Shown here one piece after another: positions 4,295 to 64,000 of a stretch of 64,000 bases of DNA. A model generated the notes under the pieces. That model did not search any database. It saw only the letters and a program-made list of their open reading frames with translations, and had not been told where the DNA came from. The stretch covers positions 1 to 64,000 of the forward strand of contig JAAZVY010000002.1 of the NCBI GenBank assembly GCA_018623195.1. The letters are read 5' to 3'. How positions within the stretch are numbered: position 1 is the first letter of the stretch; each line of letters opens with the position of its first letter. The stretch is from Flavobacteriaceae bacterium. Its GTDB lineage: Bacteria; Bacteroidota; Bacteroidia; Flavobacteriales; Flavobacteriaceae. The position numbers and the translations under genes were made by a program.

Positions 4295-5740
4295 TTATAA
4301 ACTTTTTCGCAAACGCGCTACGGGCAGGTCTAGTTGTTCTCGATACTTTGCGACGGTTCGTCTTGCTACTTTATATCCTTTTTCTTTAAGTAGTTTGCCT
4401 AATTTCTCATCGGTAAGTGGCTTGCTTTTGTCTTCTGATTCTATTAGTTCTTTTAAAATAGATTTAATTTCCCTGGTAGACACGCTTTCTCCTTCTTCGT
4501 TAGTCATTGCCTCCGAGAAGTAGCTTTTTACAAGTTGAGTCCCATACGGAGTGTCTATGTACTTGCTATTGGCTACGCGCGATATGGTTGAAATATCAAG
4601 ACCGGTTAGTTCTGCTATATCTCTTAAAATCATCGGTTTTAAATCTCTTTCGTCCCCACTTAGAAAATATGCGGTTTGATAATTGACGATCGCCTGAAGA
4701 GTTACGATAAGGGTTTGTTGTCGTTGTCTAATTGCGTCAATGAACCACTTGGCTGCATCCAATTTTTGTTTTACAAACTGTACGGCCTCCTTTTGCGTTG
4801 GGTTACTTCCTCCTTGTTTATAGGTCTCAAAAAGTTCTTTGTAAGAACGTGAGAGGTGAAGTTCTGGTGCATTTCTGGCGTTGATTTGTAGGTCGATTTG
4901 ATCGTCTTCAATCCTCAAAATAAAGTCAGGTACAACCTGGCGATTTATTCGAAGTCCTGTTGAAAAGCCTCCTCCAGGTTTAGGATTAAGTCTTTCAATT
5001 TTTGCAATCGCTGTTTTTAAAGCGTCTTCATCGATTTTGTGTTTTTGTAGGATTTTATCGAAGTGCTTTTTCGAAAACAAGTCGAAACTTTCGTCAATGA
5101 TTTCGATAGCCAAATCGCGTGAGGCACTTCTTGTTTGACGTTTTAATTGTAGGCTAAGGCATTCTGCTATATCTCTTGCTCCGATCCCTGCTGGGTCTAA
5201 TTGTTGCACGGTAACCAGAGCCTCCTTAAGTTGGTCTTCATTTATGAATAGGCCCACACTAAATGCGAGGTCGTCGATAATATCTTCTAATGGTCTTCTG
5301 AGGTAACCACTTTCATCTAGACTTCCAACGAGATATTCTGAGATTAGATATTGCTCAGGTTCTAGATTAAAGGTGGATAACTGCTCGATTAAAAAACCAT
5401 AGAAGGTCTGTCCGGCAGCATAGGGTGTTTGATTTTCATCTTCAGCTGGGGAACTTGATAGACTCGTTTTATAATCTGGGGTATCGTCATCACTGAGATA
5501 TTCTTCAATATTGATTTCCTCAGATTGATCCTCCTCGGTCGATTCAAAATCGTCATTCGTCTCGATTTCGAAGGGGTCTTCAGATTCCTCCTTGCCTGTT
5601 TCTAAGGCAGGGTTTTCTTCAATCTCTTGCTTAATACGTTCCTCAAATGCTTGAGTGGGCAGCTGAATTAACTTCATCAGCTGAATCTGCTGTGGTGACA
5701 GCTTTTGACTTAGCTTTAATTGAAGATGCTGCTTTAACAT
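4295..5740 (-). CDS. rpoN: RNA polymerase sigma-54 factor
   Basis: Alternative sigma factor that recognises -24/-12 promoters and needs an AAA+ activator. The 481 residues have the family layout: a glutamine- and leucine-rich region I at the N-terminus (LSPQQIQLMKLIQLP), an acidic region II (about 55-110), the core-binding domain, a helix-turn-helix (near LTGLDISTISRVANSKY) and the C-terminal RpoN box ARRTVAKYRE at about 459-468, which reads the -24 element. It starts 3 bases after asnS ends, so the two are cotranscribed. No sigma-54 activator gene occurs in this window. Confidence 0.96.
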   Translation of the reverse strand: MLKQHLQLKLSQKLSPQQIQLMKLIQLPTQAFEERIKQEIEENPALETGKEESEDPFEIETNDDFESTEEDQSEEINIEEYLSDDDTPDYKTSLSSSPAEDENQTPYAAGQTFYGFLIEQLSTFNLEPEQYLISEYLVGSLDESGYLRRPLEDIIDDLAFSVGLFINEDQLKEALVTVQQLDPAGIGARDIAECLSLQLKRQTRSASRDLAIEIIDESFDLFSKKHFDKILQKHKIDEDALKTAIAKIERLNPKPGGGFSTGLRINRQVVPDFILRIEDDQIDLQINARNAPELHLSRSYKELFETYKQGGSNPTQKEAVQFVKQKLDAAKWFIDAIRQRQQTLIVTLQAIVNYQTAYFLSGDERDLKPMILRDIAELTGLDISTISRVANSKYIDTPYGTQLVKSYFSEAMTNEEGESVSTREIKSILKELIESEDKSKPLTDEKLGKLLKEKGYKVARRTVAKYREQLDLPVARLRKSL

Positions 5741-10181: not shown

Positions 10182-10889
10182 TTATAAATTAACAACGGTA
10201 CCCACGTCTTCACCAGTGACTACCTTCATTAGGTTTCCTTCTTTATTCATATCAAAAACAACGATTGGAAGCTCATTTTCTTGACTCAGCGTGAAGGCGG
10301 TGGTATCCATTACCTTTAGGCCTTTTCTCAAAACGTCCTCAAATGTTATTTCGTTATATCGTGTTGCGTTTTGGTCTTTTTCAGGGTCAGCACTGTAAAT
10401 ACCGTCAACTCGGGTTCCTTTCAGGATCACGTCTGCTTTAATCTCAATAGCTCTTAATACTGCAGCCGAATCGGTGGTGAAGTATGGGTTTCCTGTACCA
10501 CCACCAAAGATCACTACTCTTCCTTTTTCTAGGTGACGCATGGCTCGTCTTCGAATGAATGGCTCCGCAACTTCATCGATTTTGATTGCGGTTTGAACAC
10601 GTGTCTCGATCCCTTCGTTTTCTAGACTACTCTGCAGAGCGAGTGCATTAATTACTGTCGCTAGCATTCCCATGTGATCCCCTTGTACACGGTCAACTCC
10701 TTTGCTCGAACCTGATAGACCCCTGAAGATATTACCTCCACCGATAACGATGGCAACCTCAACCCCCTTATCTACGACGGCTTTGATTTCTTCTGCGTAT
10801 TCTTTTAAACGATCTGGGTCAATACCGTATTGCTGGTTTCCCATCAGAGCTTCTCCGCTCAATTTTAGTAGGATTCTTTGGTAGCGCAT
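10182..10889 (-). CDS. pyrH: UMP kinase
   Basis: Phosphorylates UMP to UDP with ATP in pyrimidine nucleotide synthesis. The 235 residues carry the amino-acid-kinase fold signatures [10 protein letters not shown] (near 7-16), [11 protein letters not shown] (near 47-57), and [15 protein letters not shown]. Length is standard (about 235-240). It is the first gene of the pyrH-frr-RND-asnS-rpoN minus-strand group and is separated from tsf upstream by a clear terminator and a promoter-like -7 element. Confidence 0.97.
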
Positions 10890-10908
10890 GAGTATAAGAT
10901 TCTAGCGG

Positions 10909-10916
10909 CAAAAATA
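10909..10916 (-). promoter_or_regulatory. Promoter-like -7 element upstream of pyrH
   Basis: On the minus strand the sequence TATTTTTG fits the Bacteroidota -7 consensus TAnnTTTG and lies 20 bases before the pyrH ATG, just after the tsf terminator. I do not see a good TTTG at the usual -33 position because the terminator hairpin lies there. Confidence 0.4.
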
Positions 10917-10921
10917 AACAA

Positions 10922-10950
10922 AAAAGCCATCCTTATTGAGGATGGCTTTT
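10922..10950 (-). terminator. Rho-independent terminator after tsf
   Basis: The stem AAAGCCATCCT pairs with AGGATGGCTTT around a 5-base loop and is followed on the minus strand by a T run. It ends the rpsB-tsf transcript before pyrH. Confidence 0.88.
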
Positions 10951-10970
10951 GCTTTATCGGTGAATTAGGA

Positions 10971-11795
10971 TTATCCTAATGCTACTCTTTTGAAACCAGT
11001 AACTGTTAATGAAGCGTCAACTGATTTAACATAAGCAGCAACACTCTGCTTGTTATCCTTGATAAAATCTTGGTTAACTAGTGTGTTATCCTTAAAGAAT
11101 CGGCCTAGTTTACCTTTAGCGATCTTATCTAGCATCTCCTCAGGTTTACCTTCTTGACGAAGTTGATCTTTAGCGATTTCAATTTCTTTATCAATCGTTT
11201 CTTGATCTACACCAGCCTCATCAAGTGCAACAGGGTTCATAGCTGCTGCTTGCATTGCTACATTCTTAGCAGCCTCTTCAGCACCTTCTACATTCGCAGA
11301 AAGACCAACAATCGTAGCGATTTTGTTACCAGCGTGGATGTAAGAACCGATGAATGGAGCTTCTAAAGTTTCGTAGCTTCCGATTTCTAGTTTCTCACCG
11401 ATTACTCCAGTTTGCTCGATTAGCTTGTCAGCAACGGTTAGTGCTCCCATAGAAGAAGCAAGAAGCTCTTCTTTTGAATTTGTGTTTAATGCAATTGCTG
11501 CGATTTCGTTTGCTAAATCTACAAACGAGTCGTTTTTAGCAACGAAGTCTGTTTCACAGTTAAGAGTGATGGCAACAGCTTTGTTCTTAGCATCGTTAAC
11601 TAATGCGATAGCAGCTCCTTCAGTCGATTCGCGATCAGCACGATTGGCAGCAACTTTTTGTCCTTTTTTACGAAGGATCTCAATCGCTTTATCAAAATCA
11701 CCTTCAGCTTCAACTAGGGCTTTTTTACAGTCCATCATTCCGGCTCCGGTAGTTTTACGCAGTTGATTTACGTCTGCAGCAGAAATTTTGCTCAT
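10971..11795 (-). CDS. tsf: Elongation factor Ts
   Basis: Nucleotide exchange factor for EF-Tu. The 274 residues begin with a UBA-like domain (VNQLRKTTGAGMMDCKKAL) and continue with the EF-Tu-binding core, where the signature TDFVAKNDSF is present. Length matches the family in Bacteroidota (about 270-320). It follows rpsB on the same strand with a 76-base gap, the near-universal rpsB-tsf order. Confidence 0.97.
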   Translation of the reverse strand: MSKISAADVNQLRKTTGAGMMDCKKALVEAEGDFDKAIEILRKKGQKVAANRADRESTEGAAIALVNDAKNKAVAITLNCETDFVAKNDSFVDLANEIAAIALNTNSKEELLASSMGALTVADKLIEQTGVIGEKLEIGSYETLEAPFIGSYIHAGNKIATIVGLSANVEGAEEAAKNVAMQAAAMNPVALDEAGVDQETIDKEIEIAKDQLRQEGKPEEMLDKIAKGKLGRFFKDNTLVNQDFIKDNKQSVAAYVKSVDASLTVTGFKRVALG

Positions 11796-58275: not shown

Positions 58276-58337
58276 AATATAATTTCGTAAACAACTGTAT
58301 ACGAGATAGTTTGCTATTCGTTTTAAAATCATTTACG

Positions 58338-58607
58338 ATGAATAGTATTAAAAATCTACACCGATTAAAGAGATTACACCAACTCATTCGATCTGAATGC
58401 ACGGGTACTCCCTATGAACTTTCTAGACGTCTTCATATCAGCGAGCGTTTGGTTTATCTTTTGGTAGAACAGCTTAGAGACTTTGACGCACTCATTGAAT
58501 ACGATCGATCAAGACAGACCTATTATTACCGCGAATTGTTTGATTTAGAAGTGGATATTTCAGTTCGGGTTTACAATAAAGATCAGATGATTGAATTATA
58601 TCGTTGA
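58338..58607 (+). CDS. Small winged-helix (HTH_11-like) regulator
   Basis: An 89-residue protein. Residues about 3-22 form a first helix (MNSIKNLHRLKRLHQLI), 24-48 a helix-turn-helix (TGTPYELSRRLHISERLVYLLVEQL) and 55-68 a wing-like hairpin (ALIEYDRSRQTYYY), like the DNA-binding part of DeoR/HTH_11 proteins without an effector domain. I use the ATG at 58338; the ORF-track TTG adds nine residues. Such tiny HTH proteins are known to me beside bacteriocin-like peptide genes in flavobacteria. It is probably the local regulator of the peptide locus; the 24-bp palindrome upstream could be its site. Confidence 0.75.
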   Translation: MNSIKNLHRLKRLHQLIRSECTGTPYELSRRLHISERLVYLLVEQLRDFDALIEYDRSRQTYYYRELFDLEVDISVRVYNKDQMIELYR

Positions 58608-58643
58608 TCGATTTGACTGAAAGGTTATTGCATTGTCGGCTTC

Positions 58644-58651
58644 TAGTTTTG
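58644..58651 (+). promoter_or_regulatory. Promoter-like -7 element upstream of the 49-residue peptide gene
   Basis: TAGTTTTG fits TAnnTTTG and lies 11 bases before the peptide ATG at 58663. There is no TTTG at 18-19 bases; the nearest is 28 bases upstream. With the hairpin at 58830 it would define a transcript of about 200 bases. Confidence 0.42.
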
Positions 58652-58662
58652 AAACAAATTCA

Positions 58663-58812
58663 ATGATTATGTACAACACTAAGTTTAAAAAAAGTAAGCA
58701 CATTAAACCGTTAGAACCTCGATTTGAAATGGGTTGGTTCAAAAGCGGTGAAATTAGTACGAGTATTCAATCAGATGGGGATTTCACCGTCACCGGTAAG
58801 ATTCGTTTTTAA
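58663..58812 (+). CDS. 49-residue peptide, possible precursor peptide
   Basis: Too short for the ORF track. The frame reads MIMYNTKFKK and ends GDFTVTGKIRF; a second ATG lies two codons in. It is basic at the N-terminus (five Lys in residues 7-16), polar in the middle, has no cysteine, no double-glycine leader, no signal peptide and no membrane segment. Support for it being real: it fills the gap between the regulator and the secreted protein, has a promoter-like element right before it, ends one base before the next ATG, and is followed by a terminator-like hairpin 17 bases after the stop. A precursor peptide or a small regulator are both possible; I do not recognise a family. Confidence 0.55.
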   Translation: MIMYNTKFKKSKHIKPLEPRFEMGWFKSGEISTSIQSDGDFTVTGKIRF

Positions 58813-58813
58813 T

Positions 58814-59635
58814 ATGTTCGGCGCCTACCAAGCCCTCTTTCGAAGGGGGCTTATTTATATTTTATACTTAGCTAGTTTCTTTATGCTGTATGGTCAATAT
58901 TCAAATTCTATTGAGTTAGAAGAGGTCGAATTGTCGCCTGATAATCTTGTGTTCATGTTGAAATCAATACAAGAATTGCCTCAATCTGAAAGCGTTTCAA
59001 AATTTAGTCACGTGGACTATCGCGAAATATTATCTGCTGGTAGTCATTCGGTTATCACCACTGATAGAAAACTTATTTATCAATTAAATGTAGAACATCC
59101 CCTGAACTATTCGGATGCTTTTGAATCGAACTGGTGGTTAACCGATGAAAAGTGTTCTTACTCTGGAAGATACAAAGGACCGTTTCCTGATTTATCTTTT
59201 GCCGCACGCACTTTTCAATTGAGCTATTTCATAAAATTATTGGAGGATTACTTTGATCGTTTAATTGTATCTAGGGAACCTGATAAACTGGGCTTGAGTT
59301 ATCACTTTAGAGCTGATTCTAATATCTCTCAAATGAATATTTCAGGCTCTTTATTGTTTAATCATGAGAATCAATTATTAGAAATTCAGTTGTTTTTGCG
59401 ATTGAAGCCTGGAAATTCAAATCTGTCCATTGAGAGTTTGCATATAGTGAATACGTATCCTTTTAATGAGAAGTTAAGTCGTCAACAAGCGATGACTACC
59501 TATATTGATGCAAGTAATAAGAGAATTACTCAGTTCCAAGATTTTAGATTTTCTGAGGTCTTGGTCGAAGCTGACCAACTTCAATTGCCAGTGGATCATA
59601 AAAAGGCTCTAAAGCCCTCTTGTTATGAGCCCTGA
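58814..59635 (+). CDS. Secreted protein of unknown family in the peptide locus
   Basis: I do not recognise a family. I use the ATG at 58814 (273 residues) instead of 58724, because it gives a clean signal peptide (two Arg, hydrophobic core LIYILYLASFFMLYG, probable cleavage before QYSNS) and lies one base after the peptide gene's stop. The mature part is mixed alpha/beta with a conserved-looking aromatic core (NWWLTDEKCSYSGRYKGPFPDL) and two cysteines in total (at about 126 and 270). The first codons overlap a terminator-like hairpin. The end overlaps the next gene by 11 bases, so they are coupled. Probably periplasmic or outer-surface; a role in immunity or maturation is only a guess. Confidence 0.7.
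   Translation: MFGAYQALFRRGLIYILYLASFFMLYGQYSNSIELEEVELSPDNLVFMLKSIQELPQSESVSKFSHVDYREILSAGSHSVITTDRKLIYQLNVEHPLNYSDAFESNWWLTDEKCSYSGRYKGPFPDLSFAARTFQLSYFIKLLEDYFDRLIVSREPDKLGLSYHFRADSNISQMNISGSLLFNHENQLLEIQLFLRLKPGNSNLSIESLHIVNTYPFNEKLSRQQAMTTYIDASNKRITQFQDFRFSEVLVEADQLQLPVDHKKALKPSCYEP
58830..58852 (+). terminator. Terminator- or attenuator-like hairpin after the 49-residue peptide gene
   Basis: A 10-bp stem (AAGCCCTCTT with AAGGGGGCTT, one G-T pair) closes a 3-base loop and is followed by an A/T-rich stretch (ATTTATATTTTATA). It lies 17 bases after the peptide stop and inside codons 6-13 of the next gene, so it could end most transcripts while letting some through to the downstream genes. 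Confidence 0.6.
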
Positions 59636-60368
59636 ATTGGTATATGTACTTTCTCATGATAGTTCTAGTCCTTTCTATAAATCTTATGCTAGTTTGTTCA
59701 AAGGCTTTCTGTTGGATAGTATTGATAATCAAGTAATTGAAGATCTTGACATTATCGGTCATTTATTGTTTCAAATGATGATGCATATTGATCGCATCGA
59801 AGATGATCAAGCGAAAGGTATGGATATGGTTATTGCACTTCAAACAGAAGCTGCCAAGAGACTTTCGTATTATTTTCCCATTAACCATTCCTTTTGGATG
59901 CAATACGATCGAATTGCCAAAGAGTTTGCTCAACGCAAAAGACTTGATAGATTATGTCATCAGAGAAGTAGTTGGGTTAATTATGAGACTCTCGCATTAT
60001 CTCGATCAATTTATGCCGAACTAGGTTTAATAGCTCTCTTAGAATTAGGTCTACTTCAAAATCAACGATTTAATACGCTTATTAAGAGTCATAGACAATT
60101 TGTTATTGCCTTTCAGCTTTATGATGATTGTGCTGATTTCTATGAAGATCAGAGTAAGGAACAATTCAATTGGGCAATTCACAAGGCTTCTGCAAAGGGT
60201 ATTCCTCTTGATCAATTCTATCGATCTACGCTTTTTAGTGCACTAATTGATACTGTCGTTGGTCACTTGAATAATGCTGCTGAGTTGATTGAGGAATTGC
60301 CAAGAAGTGAGTATGGCTTGCTTATAAAGAAGATAAGAGACTCGGTGGATTCCCTTTACCAAGTATAA
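59625..60368 (+). CDS. Class I isoprenoid synthase-like helical protein
   Basis: A 247-residue, almost entirely alpha-helical protein without signal peptide. Two Asp-rich motifs are spaced about 110 residues apart: DRIEDDQAKGMD (56-67) and YDDCADFYED (166-175, DDxxD). This pattern resembles the two metal-binding motifs of trans-isoprenyl diphosphate synthases and class I terpene synthases, though the rest is divergent and shorter than the usual 280-350. The gene overlaps the secreted-protein gene by 11 bases and touches the M50 gene (0-base gap), so it belongs to the peptide operon. Prenylation or lipid-precursor synthesis linked to a peptide is a reasonable hypothesis, not shown. Confidence 0.65.
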   Translation: MSPELVYVLSHDSSSPFYKSYASLFKGFLLDSIDNQVIEDLDIIGHLLFQMMMHIDRIEDDQAKGMDMVIALQTEAAKRLSYYFPINHSFWMQYDRIAKEFAQRKRLDRLCHQRSSWVNYETLALSRSIYAELGLIALLELGLLQNQRFNTLIKSHRQFVIAFQLYDDCADFYEDQSKEQFNWAIHKASAKGIPLDQFYRSTLFSALIDTVVGHLNNAAELIEELPRSEYGLLIKKIRDSVDSLYQV

Positions 60369-61463
60369 ATGAATTCAAAATTATTTCATTGCCCTTTGCA
60401 CTTTGAGCTTATTTCAGGTCAAACCTATTTACTTAATGATAAGATTCAATTAGTGAGTTACGAGTTAAGTAAAGAGTTATTTGATCTGTTAACTTACTGT
60501 CGTCTCCCCAGAACCAAAGCAGAACTGATCGACGAATTATCAAAGAAATTGATCTCATCCGAGGAATGCCAAGAATTAATCTTAGAGTTAGATCTACTTA
60601 CAGGTAAAGAACAAAGGATTCGTTCTAAGGTACTTCGTCGAATAAACCATGCTGGTTTACGCGGGATAGATTTAAGGATTAATCGGTGTCAATTTTCTTG
60701 GCTCAATACCTTGAAATTATTTTCAATCGAGGTTATGGTAGGTCTCTGTCTACTTGCTATGCTATCTCTGATGGCTGTTGGAATAGTGTTGGGAAAAAGT
60801 GTCCTTGATACTCCACTGCCATTTTGGGGATTGTTATTAGTTCTGCTTAGTACTCCTATTCATGAATTAGGGCACGCTATGGCCTATAAAAGTCTGGGAG
60901 GAAGCGCTTTTAGTATAGGAGCGGGTTTCTATTTTTTTATTCCGGTTTTATTCGTTGATGTTTCATTAAGCAATTCACTTTCTAGAGCTAGCCGTTTGAA
61001 AATTAGTCTAGCAGGTGTCTATTTCGAATTGATTTGGATTTTGTTTTTACTTGGTTTTGGGTTGGCTTTTCAAATTGATTGGATGTATACAGCGATCCTT
61101 TTGATCGGTATTCAAGCCTTGTGGAATTTGAACCCATTTTTTCGATCAGATGGTTATTGGATTCTCTCTGACTTAACAAATACTCGATGGCTTTCACGAA
61201 GCAGTGCTGAAGAATTAAGGATGTTTATTAAGGCTAATAGACCTTTAAACGGGTTAGTTTTTTATGCGATTACAAGAAGTTTTTTTGTCGCTTATTGTTT
61301 TATTCATCTCATTTATCAATTCTTTTTTGCCGAAAAACGATTGGTTGAGGTCTTGATTGATTTTATTCGATCTCCTTCGATTGATCATTTTTCAGTGACA
61401 CTTATACTGCCTTTTCTGTTTGTAATATCCCTTTTTCGTTATGCTGCAAAGAGATTGCAATGA
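60369..61463 (+). CDS. M50-family membrane metalloprotease with PqqD-like N-terminus
   Basis: A 364-residue protein. Residues about 5-85 look like a PqqD/RRE-type peptide-binding domain (FELISGQTYLLNDKIQLV and SKELFDLLTYCRLPRTKAELIDEL in family form), followed by membrane helices at about 115-140, 150-175, 183-200, 212-235, 240-255 and near the C-terminus. The zinc site HELGH (165-169) and the distant NPFFRSDGYW (255-264), which supplies the Asp ligand, are both intact. Proteins of this layout occur in peptide-natural-product clusters and may cleave, export or protect against a peptide. It begins directly after the isoprenoid synthase-like gene. Confidence 0.82.
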   Translation: MNSKLFHCPLHFELISGQTYLLNDKIQLVSYELSKELFDLLTYCRLPRTKAELIDELSKKLISSEECQELILELDLLTGKEQRIRSKVLRRINHAGLRGIDLRINRCQFSWLNTLKLFSIEVMVGLCLLAMLSLMAVGIVLGKSVLDTPLPFWGLLLVLLSTPIHELGHAMAYKSLGGSAFSIGAGFYFFIPVLFVDVSLSNSLSRASRLKISLAGVYFELIWILFLLGFGLAFQIDWMYTAILLIGIQALWNLNPFFRSDGYWILSDLTNTRWLSRSSAEELRMFIKANRPLNGLVFYAITRSFFVAYCFIHLIYQFFFAEKRLVEVLIDFIRSPSIDHFSVTLILPFLFVISLFRYAAKRLQ

Positions 61464-61500
61464 GCTCGGATATCTTACCCTTCAATTCAAAAACATAACA

Positions 61501-61644
61501 ATGAAAAGAGCTTTATCAATACCTGAAATGAAAAAAGTGAGAGGTGGTTTCTTACCCTTTGTAGTCATCCTAGTTATCGATGCTACACTACTCGGTTTTA
61601 TGAGTGGATATATTTATGAATCTTTTACCAGTGATCACCAATGA
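61501..61644 (+). CDS. Double-glycine-leader peptide (bacteriocin-like precursor)
   Basis: A 47-residue peptide read from the ATG at 61501; the longer ORF-track start overlaps the M50 gene. The leader LSIPEMKKVRGG (residues 5-16) fits the double-glycine consensus LSxxEMxxVxGG exactly at its key positions, so cleavage after Gly16 is expected. The 31-residue core is one strongly hydrophobic helix (FLPFVVILVIDATLLGFMSG) with a GxxxG motif (GFMSG), a feature of class IIb two-peptide bacteriocins, and a polar tail (ESFTSDHQ). It has no cysteine. A C39 peptidase gene of the matching type lies 170 bases downstream. Membrane-active bacteriocin or signalling peptide are the main options. Confidence 0.82.
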   Translation: MKRALSIPEMKKVRGGFLPFVVILVIDATLLGFMSGYIYESFTSDHQ

Positions 61645-61754
61645 TTTTCTCTGCATTAACCAAAAAATCTCTTGAGGTGGGTCTTTTCGAGATTTTCGTT
61701 CAAAGCTTTAAAAGAGGACAAGATTTTTATCATAGAAACTGTAATCATGAATAA
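61641..61754 (+). CDS. 37-residue ORF overlapping the double-glycine peptide gene
   Basis: Too short for the ORF track. Its ATG overlaps the stop of the double-glycine peptide gene in the ATGA form, the classic sign of translational coupling, and its end overlaps the next tiny ORF by 8 bases. The product reads MIFSALTKKSLEVGLFEIF and ends HRNCNHE; it is amphipathic with one cysteine and no leader. A second peptide of a pair or an immunity-related peptide is possible, but there is no family match that I know, and the ORF could be non-coding. Confidence 0.4.
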   Translation: MIFSALTKKSLEVGLFEIFVQSFKRGQDFYHRNCNHE

Positions 61755-61833
61755 AGAATGGCAATATGGGTTAGGTTTTGTAGCAATACTTGCCCTGTTT
61801 ATAATCATTGGAAGATGGGTAGCTACCCATTAA
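61747..61833 (+). CDS. 28-residue single-helix membrane peptide
   Basis: Too short for the ORF track. It reads MNKEWQYGLGFVAILALFI and ends GRWVATH, one membrane helix with charged ends. It overlaps the 37-residue ORF by 8 bases and the C39 peptidase gene by 19 bases in another frame. The chain of overlaps and the clean hydrophobic helix favour a real gene, such as an immunity peptide, leaderless bacteriocin or small subunit of the export machinery. Its function is unknown. Confidence 0.5.
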   Translation: MNKEWQYGLGFVAILALFIIIGRWVATH

Positions 61834-62219
61834 TCTCGGTTAAACAACGATCTTTTTTCGATTGTGGAATAGCTTGCTTAAAAAGCCTATTTCTATACCA
61901 TGGTTGTTTTTTCAGCCTTCCGAGACGACAAAAACGCTTTCGGGGGTATAGTCTTTATGAGCTTTTTAAGTTAGCTGACCAGCAAGGGATGCAAGCGTTT
62001 GTTTATCGATCCTCATCATTTGACGTAGACTGTATTCCTTGTCTGGTTCAATTAAGCTACATGGGGGTCGGACACTACGTTGTTGTATATGGTTACACTG
62101 CGAATAAAATACAGATCATGGACCCATCGGTGGGTCGTATTTATTGGTTGCCTGAAACGAAATTTCAGCGATTGTGGTCGGGATTTTTCTTAGTTCTATC
62201 AGAGAAAAAACCTCTGTAA
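61815..62219 (+). CDS. Standalone C39 peptidase (double-glycine leader protease)
   Basis: A 134-residue protein that is only a C39 papain-like domain. The catalytic Cys is in FDCGIAC (Cys17, with the oxyanion Gln11), the His in GHYVVVYGY (His87) and the Asp in IMDPS (Asp103), so the whole triad is intact. C39 domains usually form the N-terminus of ABC exporters for double-glycine peptides; here no ABC part is attached. I use the ATG giving MGSYPLIS; the ORF-track start overlaps the tiny ORF upstream. The substrate is very likely the double-glycine peptide at 61501. There is no signal peptide, so cleavage should occur on the cytoplasmic side. Confidence 0.85.
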   Translation: MGSYPLISVKQRSFFDCGIACLKSLFLYHGCFFSLPRRQKRFRGYSLYELFKLADQQGMQAFVYRSSSFDVDCIPCLVQLSYMGVGHYVVVYGYTANKIQIMDPSVGRIYWLPETKFQRLWSGFFLVLSEKKPL

Positions 62220-62319
62220 AATCTGTTTTATTGAAATTTTAACGTTTGTGGACAACATAAGCTGTAACAAAGCAGTTTCTTTGTCGTCTAAAGGGGTATA
62301 AACGTAGCTACTCGTATCG

Positions 62320-63021
62320 ATGATAGAAATTAAAGACTTGCATAAGTCATATCAAATGGGCAGTAATTCACTGCATGTCTTAAAAGGAATCAACTTTTCT
62401 GTAGAACAAGGTGAATTAGTGGCAATTATGGGTTCTTCGGGTTCTGGTAAATCGACTTTACTGAACATCTTAGGAATGTTAGATGAAGCTGATTCAGGTT
62501 CTTATACCTTAGATTCTGTACCTATTGTAGACCTTAATGAGACCAAGGCAGCTGAATATCGAAATAAGTTTCTTGGATTTATTTTTCAGTCTTTTAACTT
62601 GATCAACTACAAATCAGCCGTTGAAAATGTTGCTCTTCCATTGTATTATCAAGGTAAATCTAGAAAGGAGCGAAATGCTACAGCACTAGAATATCTTGAT
62701 CGAGTCGGTCTAAAACCCTGGGCAGACCATTTGCCCAGTGAGCTATCAGGAGGTCAAAAGCAGCGTGTAGCTATTGCCCGTGCAATGGCTGCAGACCCTA
62801 AAGTTCTCTTAGCTGATGAGCCCACCGGAGCTTTAGATAGCAAAACTTCTTATGAGGTGATGGACCTCATTCAGAAAATTAATGATGAGGGTAATACCAT
62901 ACTCGTGGTAACTCATGAGGAGGATATCGCTCATATGTGCAAACGAATCGTCTACTTGAAAGACGGCGTGATTGTTGAAGATAAAAAAGTAGACCAAGTA
63001 CGCGCCTCTCAATATGTTTAG
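62320..63021 (+). CDS. ABC transporter ATP-binding protein (MacB/LolD type)
   Basis: ATPase of 233 residues. Walker A is [11 protein letters not shown] (about 38-48), the signature is [14 protein letters not shown], Walker B is [12 protein letters not shown] and the switch histidine is in VVTHE. The length and the QSFNLI segment fit the MacB/LolD group, which works with FtsX-type permeases. Its end overlaps the permease gene by 8 bases. The 100 bases before it contain no gene. Whether it exports the peptide of the neighbouring locus or is an unrelated MacB-type system cannot be decided here. Confidence 0.93.
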
Positions 63022-64000
63022 TAGAGATACCTGGAAAGAGATTTTCGATACCATTCGAAAGAATAAGCTTAGAACCTTTTTGACAGGGTTCACAATGGCC
63101 TTAGGGATTTTTATTGTAGTCATCCTGGTAGGGTTTACCAATGGTTTGCAGAATACCTTTGAAAAATTCTTTGGGGATGATGCCACCAACACCCTGTTTG
63201 TATTTCCAGGAAGAACATCGATGCCCTACAAGGGATACACTTCAAATCGAAGAATTCAATTCGATAATTCAGACTTAAAAGATATCGAGGAAAATTTTGC
63301 AATGTTTCTCGATTATATTACTCCACGTATTACTCGTTCTAGTCTTGTAAGATATAAGGGAGAATCTAATAACTATACGAATAGAGCAGTGGCTCCAGCC
63401 CATCAATTCAGTGAGAAAACGATTATTATGAAAGGTCGTTTTTTAAATGAAAATGACATAAATATCAGAGCGAAGTATGCAGTGATTGGGCGTTTAGTTG
63501 CCAAGGATTTATTTAAAGAGGAAGATCCTATTGGGAAATACATCACTTTGGGCGACAGTGCATTTAAAGTTATTGGTGTGTTTCAAGACGATGGAGGGGA
63601 CAATGAAGAGCGCTTCATTTATATCCCTTATACTACGAGACAACTTATCGAAAAAGGGAATGATAAGATTGAACAGATCATCCTTGGGTTTAACCCTAGT
63701 ATAGGCTATGCTGGTGCTATGGCTCTTGAGAAAAATGTAACTAAACTTCTAAAGGAGAAGAAATTCATTGCAAGAGAAGATCGCAGCGGAATATTCATTC
63801 GAAATATTGCAGATGAACTCAAGCAGAATCAACAATTTGCTCAGGTATTAGGATTTATAGCATTGTTTTTTGCCATTGGTACTATTGTTGCAGGTATCAT
63901 TGGTGTAAGTAATATCATGATTTTTGTGGTAAAGGAGCGCACTAAAGAAATCGGAATTCGAAAAGCTTTAGGAGCGACACCTAGAGTCGTGATTAGTACC
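63014..64000 (+). CDS. ABC transporter permease (MacB/FtsX type), cut by the window end
   Basis: Absent from the ORF track because the frame runs off the window. The ATG overlaps the ATPase gene by 8 bases. The protein begins [20 protein letters not shown] with a first helix (about 20-44), then a MacB-type periplasmic domain (about 45-275; ARNFLxxxD-like [15 protein letters not shown] and [20 protein letters not shown] in family form), then a second helix (about 278-303) and the coupling segment [18 protein letters not shown]. Helices 3 and 4 lie outside. Partner of the ATPase in a mechanotransmission-type transporter of peptides, lipoproteins or drugs. Confidence 0.92.

Follow-up and report, generated by a model that had tools for sequence, protein, structure and literature searches.

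At positions 58338 to 62219 of the window, that is, the whole stretch of 64,000 nucleotides analysed here (positions 1 to 64,000 of contig JAAZVY010000002.1, from the 1.7-Mb draft genome of a Flavobacteriaceae bacterium), we found nine open reading frames (ORFs), all on the + strand and overlapping or separated by short gaps. An earlier note on this DNA had listed them; all of them exist, and their coordinates were refined. The first (58338..58607) encodes a small winged-helix-type regulator of 89 aa, which matches HTH_11 with E 0.011 (3.2e-5 for the homologue in locus L127) and is 64-98% identical in congeners. It is followed by a peptide of 49 aa, here called peptide 1 (58663..58812; 47 aa if the ATG at 58669 is used), by a secreted or anchored protein of 273 aa whose hydrophobic N-terminus was read from the sequence (58814..59635), by a helical protein of 247 aa consisting of a stand-alone domain similar to trans-isoprenyl-diphosphate synthases (trans-IDS), here called the P domain (59625..60368), and by an M50 (site-2-type) intramembrane metalloprotease of 364 aa (60369..61463). 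The remaining genes encode a double-glycine (GG) peptide of 47 aa (61501..61644), a 37-aa partner peptide (61641..61754), a 28-aa peptide with a single membrane span, also read from the sequence (61747..61833), and a lone C39 peptidase of 134 aa (61815..62219). The locus is a real compact composite of two modules differing in origin: module A holds peptide 1, the secreted protein, the helical protein and the M50 protease, and module B the GG peptide, the 37-aa and 28-aa peptides and the C39 peptidase.

The small ORFs were compared with those of two sister species, at loci L009 (PZPI01000033, 'Bacteroidetes bacterium') and L010 (JAHEKV010000001, 'Flavobacteriaceae bacterium Ww593'), whose enzymes are 81-88% identical to those of the window. 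Synonymous and nonsynonymous changes with respect to the two sisters numbered 3/0 and 7/1 in peptide 1, 5/0 and 5/3 in the GG peptide, 3/0 and 5/2 in the 37-aa peptide, and 5/1 and 6/2 in the 28-aa peptide. Since nearly all of these changes are synonymous, the small ORFs are genuine genes, and peptide 1 is under purifying selection. With the exception of the 28-aa peptide, which is kept in the sisters, they are recognisable at 54-76% identity in three remoter congeners.

The borders of the cassette were drawn from 11 genomes of the genus. Six of them (G000, G009, G010, G001, G004 and G008) carry the full set at one chromosomal site, flanked by SCO1/DUF420 genes on one side and by an ABC/MacB operon on the other. 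At the same site the cassette was excised in three genomes, leaving 14 aa of the regulator in G007, a regulator stub of about 32 aa that is continued by the C39 end in G003, and only the C39 end in G005; the differing deletion breakpoints imply separate losses. In G002 the regulator is still present along with a peptide 1 that is shortened; G006 was not placed. The flanks persist in the deleted genomes, ABC protein included (87-99% identical). The genes for an ATP-binding cassette (ABC) ATPase and a MacB-type permease that follow on the + strand (62320..64000, continuing as MacB-MacB-MacA-TolC) were rejected as members of the unit, which runs from the regulator to C39, because they stay where the cassette is deleted. 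Between C39 and the ABC gene (62220-62319) lies a stretch TGTAACAAA...CTTTGTCGTC that is also found in cassette-less genomes and is a candidate separate promoter of the ABC/MacB operon. At the other end, a box (G)AGATAGTTT lies ahead of the regulator (58300-58340) and is kept in the window, in congeners and in two deletion remnants; an inverted partner is sometimes found near the start codon, and the box is a candidate site for the regulator. Order and content are the same in the six congeners and also in a member of another genus (G184, locus L064), where a cyclase is fused to the P domain; this rules out that the homologues of these genes occur scattered and never together.

The match of the helical protein to the polyprenyl-synthetase library model was marginal (E 0.023), reaching 8e-6 in relatives. 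When a profile of 22 relatives was compared with one built from 24 true trans-IDS of related genomes, they matched at 96.2% (E 2.5e-9), with both aspartate-rich (Asp) motifs in register, as compared to 0.1-0.2% for unrelated decoy profiles. Asp56 and Asp60, which are positions 1 and 5 of the first Asp motif (FARM), Asp167, Asp168, Asp171 and Asp175 of the second (SARM), and Trp91 are invariant in the 22 family members, and Gln164, just before the second motif, is conserved in at least 90% of them. Donor binding and recognition of tryptophan (Trp) in trans-IDS-like peptide prenyltransferases have been assigned to these conserved residues (PMC13290415; PMC5331326). The window protein has its second motif intact (DDCAD) and has no counterpart to the N-terminal region of trans-IDS ahead of the first motif, nor to the Arg pair behind it. 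The P domain is a probable peptide (Trp) prenyltransferase, as judged from the profile match, the invariant residues and the homologues that are fused to an MstE-like cyclase. The ComQ/ComX and PalQ/PalX systems likewise prenylate a peptide Trp with an enzyme of the isoprenoid synthase superfamily; however, ComQ is without the second Asp motif (PMC10853753), and the window locus further differs from ComQ/ComX in having an M50 protease of the type with a RiPP recognition element (RRE), where RiPP stands for ribosomally synthesized and post-translationally modified peptide. Membership of the ComQX group was rejected, as the second motif is intact and the cassette contains no ComP/ComA-type kinase.

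RiPPs of the ChrPC type, made by a prenyltransferase-cyclase, were reportedly described by Hubrich et al. in 2024 (Chem 10:3224). According to a review (PMC13290415), ChrPC has a trans-IDS-like P domain that acts on an internal Trp and is fused to a cyclase domain, which closes the prenyl group into a ring, and the cyclase domain of its sister enzyme NctPC is likened to MstE. Peptide prenyltransferases of the isoprenoid synthase fold are few in that review: besides the P domain of ChrPC, they are ComQ and PalQ. As far as the review describes it, ChrPC is like the window enzyme in that its P domain is trans-IDS-like, with the two Asp motifs and an upstream Gln, and in Trp as the probable acceptor; relatives of the window enzyme have the same fusion with an MstE-like cyclase part. 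By contrast, the window genus has the P domain only, with no fused class II terpene cyclase, and its precursor core is conserved, not variable, and joined to a double-glycine pair and C39. Most relatives of the P domain are 570-740 aa long and contain an additional C-terminal domain whose profile hits are MstE and squalene-hopene cyclases (E 1e-32 to 4e-37), and DxDD is kept in seven fused cyclase domains. The window protein stops after the P domain at 247 aa, and the P-only window clade is nested in a supported group with fused forms (96/92 support). Given this nesting, and since no cyclase-domain match was found in the 11 genus genomes by a search that had no positive control among them, the cyclase was most likely lost; the expected product is therefore a prenyl-Trp peptide that stays uncyclised.

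Of 400 genomes of the family, 13 contained relatives of the P domain, as did 11 of 396 from the phylum, a few of the matches being weak lookalikes or fragments; L068 (squalene/phytoene-synthase-like), L078 (doubtful), and L065 and L067 (fragments) were set aside. In the neighbourhood of the 16 sound P loci outside the genus, an M50 gene is present in 15, the exception being L073, which lies near a contig end. At 13 of the 16 loci the enzyme genes occur with short ORFs that have the leader (F)x(V)EELExRFEMG in common. Two such ORFs occur in L062 and six, in tandem, in L070, with common leaders and unrelated cores, which is the hallmark of RiPP precursors. Module A is a Bacteroidota RiPP cassette, found also in these 16 loci of other genera. 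The tandem cores of L070 (8319-9364, + strand; e.g. WVTVRPIDPHLPN, WDCVQPC and WQLEIDELPK) lie ahead of a fused prenyltransferase-cyclase and represent a natural combinatorial library. In another genus, L061 (8513-8749, + strand) encodes a precursor with a long core rich in Gly, His, Asp and Cys beside a P-only enzyme of 287 aa. In L071, L075 and L077 a radical SAM gene, upstream of the precursor or of the P gene, accompanies the fused enzyme, which suggests a second modification in these clusters.

A Trp lies no more than six residues past the leader motif in 18 of 21 homologous precursors, and likewise in the window peptide. Its layout is PLEPRFEMG-WFKSGEISTSIQSDGDFTVTGKIRF, the leader ending ...IKPLEPRFEMG, and its sole Trp follows immediately after the leader motif LExRxEMG. 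The core hardly varies within the genus and can still be recognised in two others, with a W-[FIL]-K-x-G-E-[IV] start and a K-[VIL]-[RK]-F end. Peptide 1 is the RiPP precursor of the locus and the probable substrate of both the isoprenoid-synthase-like protein and the M50 protease.

All 21 M50 proteins of the family matched the model for the intramembrane metalloprotease of daptides (best 2.3e-40), and 20 of them also the YydH/LiaK model; the window protein matched daptide_HExxH with E 6.5e-23. The HExxH motif (HELGH, residues 165-169) and the downstream Asp-Gly-Tyr-Trp (DGYW, 261-264) are invariant across the family. The PqqD-like N-terminus noticed earlier gave no Pfam match, yet it held in the profile comparison, in which the N-terminal 115 residues scored 86% against PqqD profiles (E 4.9e-6), as compared to 0.2-0.4% for decoys. 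The RRE-dependent intramembrane peptidase of daptides, MpaP, cleaves off the leader (PMC10036551). The window locus resembles the MpaP and YydH/LiaK systems in having an M50 intramembrane protease beside a RiPP precursor, with an RRE-type N-terminus as in MpaP, and differs from daptide and epipeptide loci in that their modifying enzymes are missing and its scores fall under both equivalog cut-offs (for YydH/LiaK, 48.4 of 225 bits); on these grounds membership of either class was rejected. We infer, on good grounds, that the M50 protein would be the leader peptidase of peptide 1. The secreted protein is probably a shortened member of the CarboxypepD_reg-like proteins that occupy the same place in related loci: the two are colinear but the profile match is weak (prob 15%, E 0.0018), and a CarbopepD_reg_2 domain was detected in L060 and L030.

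Module B resembles class IIb two-peptide bacteriocin loci in its adjacent small peptides, GxxxG motif, double-glycine leader and C39 domain, and its regulator family is common to the class IIb-type loci of Flavobacteriaceae; it differs in that the transporter is cut to C39 alone, HlyD is lost and the second peptide is leaderless. The loci of G340 and G274 contain an HlyD adaptor, a regulator of the same family, standing ahead of the peptides as in the window, a GG peptide, a partner peptide and a full transporter with C39, membrane and ATPase domains. G411 and G422 have similar two-peptide loci, with weaker peptide matches. In G184, G340 and G274 both peptides have double-glycine leaders; in the window genus only the GG peptide has one (RGG, KAG or RAG). 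In the window its leader ends ...KKVRGG and the mature part is FLPFVVILVIDATLLGFMSGYIYESFTSDHQ; Gly32 and Gly36, of the GxxxG type, are invariant, and the partner gene overlaps the GG gene. One peptide of the G274 pair passes the class IIb model TIGR03949 (22.6 bits) and the other a bacteriocin-signal model, and the GG peptide of the window is under the cut-off of TIGR03949 (13.5 of 21.5 bits).

In the L126 and L127 transporters the C39, membrane and ATPase domains are all in one protein. An additional truncated GG peptide joined to the start of a partner leader was seen in L126 (reverse-complement 5460-5669), between the intact pair and the transporter. The order in G184 (L064) is regulator, peptide 1, a 370-aa secreted protein, the fused P domain and cyclase, M50, GG peptide and a partner with a double-glycine leader, followed by C39 and what is left of the membrane domain, each in an ORF of its own, while an ATPase is absent; this locus is an intermediate state of transporter reduction. 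The C39 protein of the window (PF03412, E 5e-19) is a remnant of a peptidase-containing ABC transporter, and its catalytic Cys, His and Asp motifs (DCG..C, GHY and MDP) are intact when aligned to full transporters. Module A appears to lie inside an older bacteriocin-type locus, with the regulator of that locus on one side and its peptides on the other. The 28-aa peptide is placed like a small immunity-type protein, and an immunity function is putative; its fusion to C39 as a membrane anchor was unsupported, the two being separate in L064 too.

Taken together, we consider it likely that the locus makes a Trp-prenylated lipopeptide and retains the remains of a two-peptide bacteriocin, both under one regulator. 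As translated, peptide 1 would consist of a leader with LEPRFEMG at its end and a core of 25 residues that opens with the sole Trp. The P domain, without the usual acceptor site for isopentenyl diphosphate, would bind an allylic diphosphate (C10-C20) via Mg2+ at the two Asp motifs and move the prenyl group onto this Trp. In relatives the fused MstE-like domain probably cyclises the prenyl group afterwards; in the window genus the product would be linear, or show only the Trp ring closure known from ComX. The M50 protease would then grip the leader by its PqqD-like domain and cut in the membrane, freeing the lipopeptide. Separately, C39 would trim the double-glycine leader from the hydrophobic GxxxG peptide, which may pair with the 37-aa peptide. 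The dedicated transporter being gone, export would perhaps occur by the MacAB-TolC-type operon immediately downstream. The earlier note had likewise proposed that the locus produces one or two peptides, matures them and sets them free, perhaps by way of an isoprenoid-related step, a reading that our results support and to which they add the two modules of different origin.

Several points weigh against this interpretation. Gene identities, co-inheritance, conserved catalytic residues, purifying selection, the missing cyclase and the reduced transporter were computed, whereas prenylation, prenyl length, cut sites, export route and a killing or signalling role are inferred. Trans-IDS-like peptide prenyltransferases are known, but ChrPC, the only one with this domain architecture, was matched by its description in the review and not by sequence. 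The first Asp motif of the window protein is DRIED, which departs from DDxxD. Two structure predictions of the P domain were of low confidence (predicted local distance difference test, pLDDT, 41 and 42) and are unusable alone; little weight is given to the fact that farnesyl and geranylgeranyl diphosphate synthases were the top structural matches of the model, with the Trp prenyltransferase Ord1 lower. The window M50 is far under the daptide equivalog cut-off (81.5 of 300 bits), and the cyclase search was uncontrolled in the way noted above. Finally, the C39 gene is frameshifted in G001 (L027, reverse-complement coordinates 10649-11108), by a sequencing error or early decay, and this frameshift together with the repeated cassette loss indicates that module B may be partly decaying.

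With the chemistry unchanged, it is possible that the lipopeptide is a ComX-like pheromone and not an antimicrobial, sensed by neighbours or fed back to the regulator. The strong conservation of the peptide 1 core over three genera suggests a fixed target or receptor and makes signalling a serious rival: the core is under strong purifying selection, unlike the variable tandem cores of L070, the regulator is always the first gene, and ComX is the classic trans-IDS-prenylated peptide (PMC5331326). Nevertheless, the cassette contains no histidine kinase or receptor, and loci lacking peptide 1 can begin with a regulator of this family too. It is somewhat doubtful that module B is vestigial, with C39 and the two-peptide genes as decaying leftovers and module A alone functional, as the loss of the transporter and HlyD, the leaderless 37-aa peptide, the frameshift in G001 and the three deletions would have it; few genes of the locus are as well conserved as those of the GG and 37-aa peptides (94-100% identity in sisters, 54-67% across the genus), and C39 keeps its motifs with a ratio of nonsynonymous to synonymous substitution rates (dN/dS) of 0.09-0.16. 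We think it unlikely that the P domain has been catalytically dead since the cyclase was lost and only holds or delivers the peptide, the product being an unmodified M50-cleaved peptide. The loss of the cyclase domain, the first motif off DDxxD in the window clade and the long branch leading to that clade would fit such a loss of function, but the first and fifth Asp of motif one and the entire second motif are invariant, and dN/dS of the P domain is about 0.2 between sisters and 0.06 for G004 with respect to G008. That the 247-aa protein is an ordinary isoprenoid-chain synthase for another pathway, its place among peptide genes being incidental, is very improbable and was rejected, for it shares the fold family but is under the Pfam cut-off and misses acceptor-site features (the long N-terminal region and the Arg pair), two bona fide trans-IDS are already present elsewhere in the genome, and the P family accompanies M50 proteins and precursor peptides phylum-wide.

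The preferred reading, a prenylated peptide beside bacteriocin remains, bears on the statement of the earlier note that it knew of no described system with this combination. This does not hold for the parts, since the enzyme core matches the ChrPC type of 2024 and the pair is class IIb-like; within the literature searched, it stands for the combination and for the cyclase-less form. To our knowledge, the fusion of the two modules, the cyclase-free P domain and the lone-C39 transporter remnant are undescribed in the literature searched.

A more speculative extension, which we put forward as doubtful, is a three-peptide system in which a linear prenyl-Trp lipopeptide, made by the stand-alone P domain and the RRE-guided M50 protease, would act jointly with the C39-processed pair after export by MacAB-TolC; if true, a prenylated RiPP and a class IIb bacteriocin would here have been fused by nature. 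A P family that is widespread in Bacteroidota is now linked to a recognisable leader (LExRxEMG-W) and an RRE-type M50 protease, and therefore its clusters are easily found and offer a testable route from precursor to lipopeptide. The window genus, now lacking the terpene cyclase and with only the peptidase left of its transporter, is a natural experiment that can reveal how the P domain acts alone, how an uncyclised prenyl-Trp peptide behaves and whether it acts together with bacteriocin pairs.

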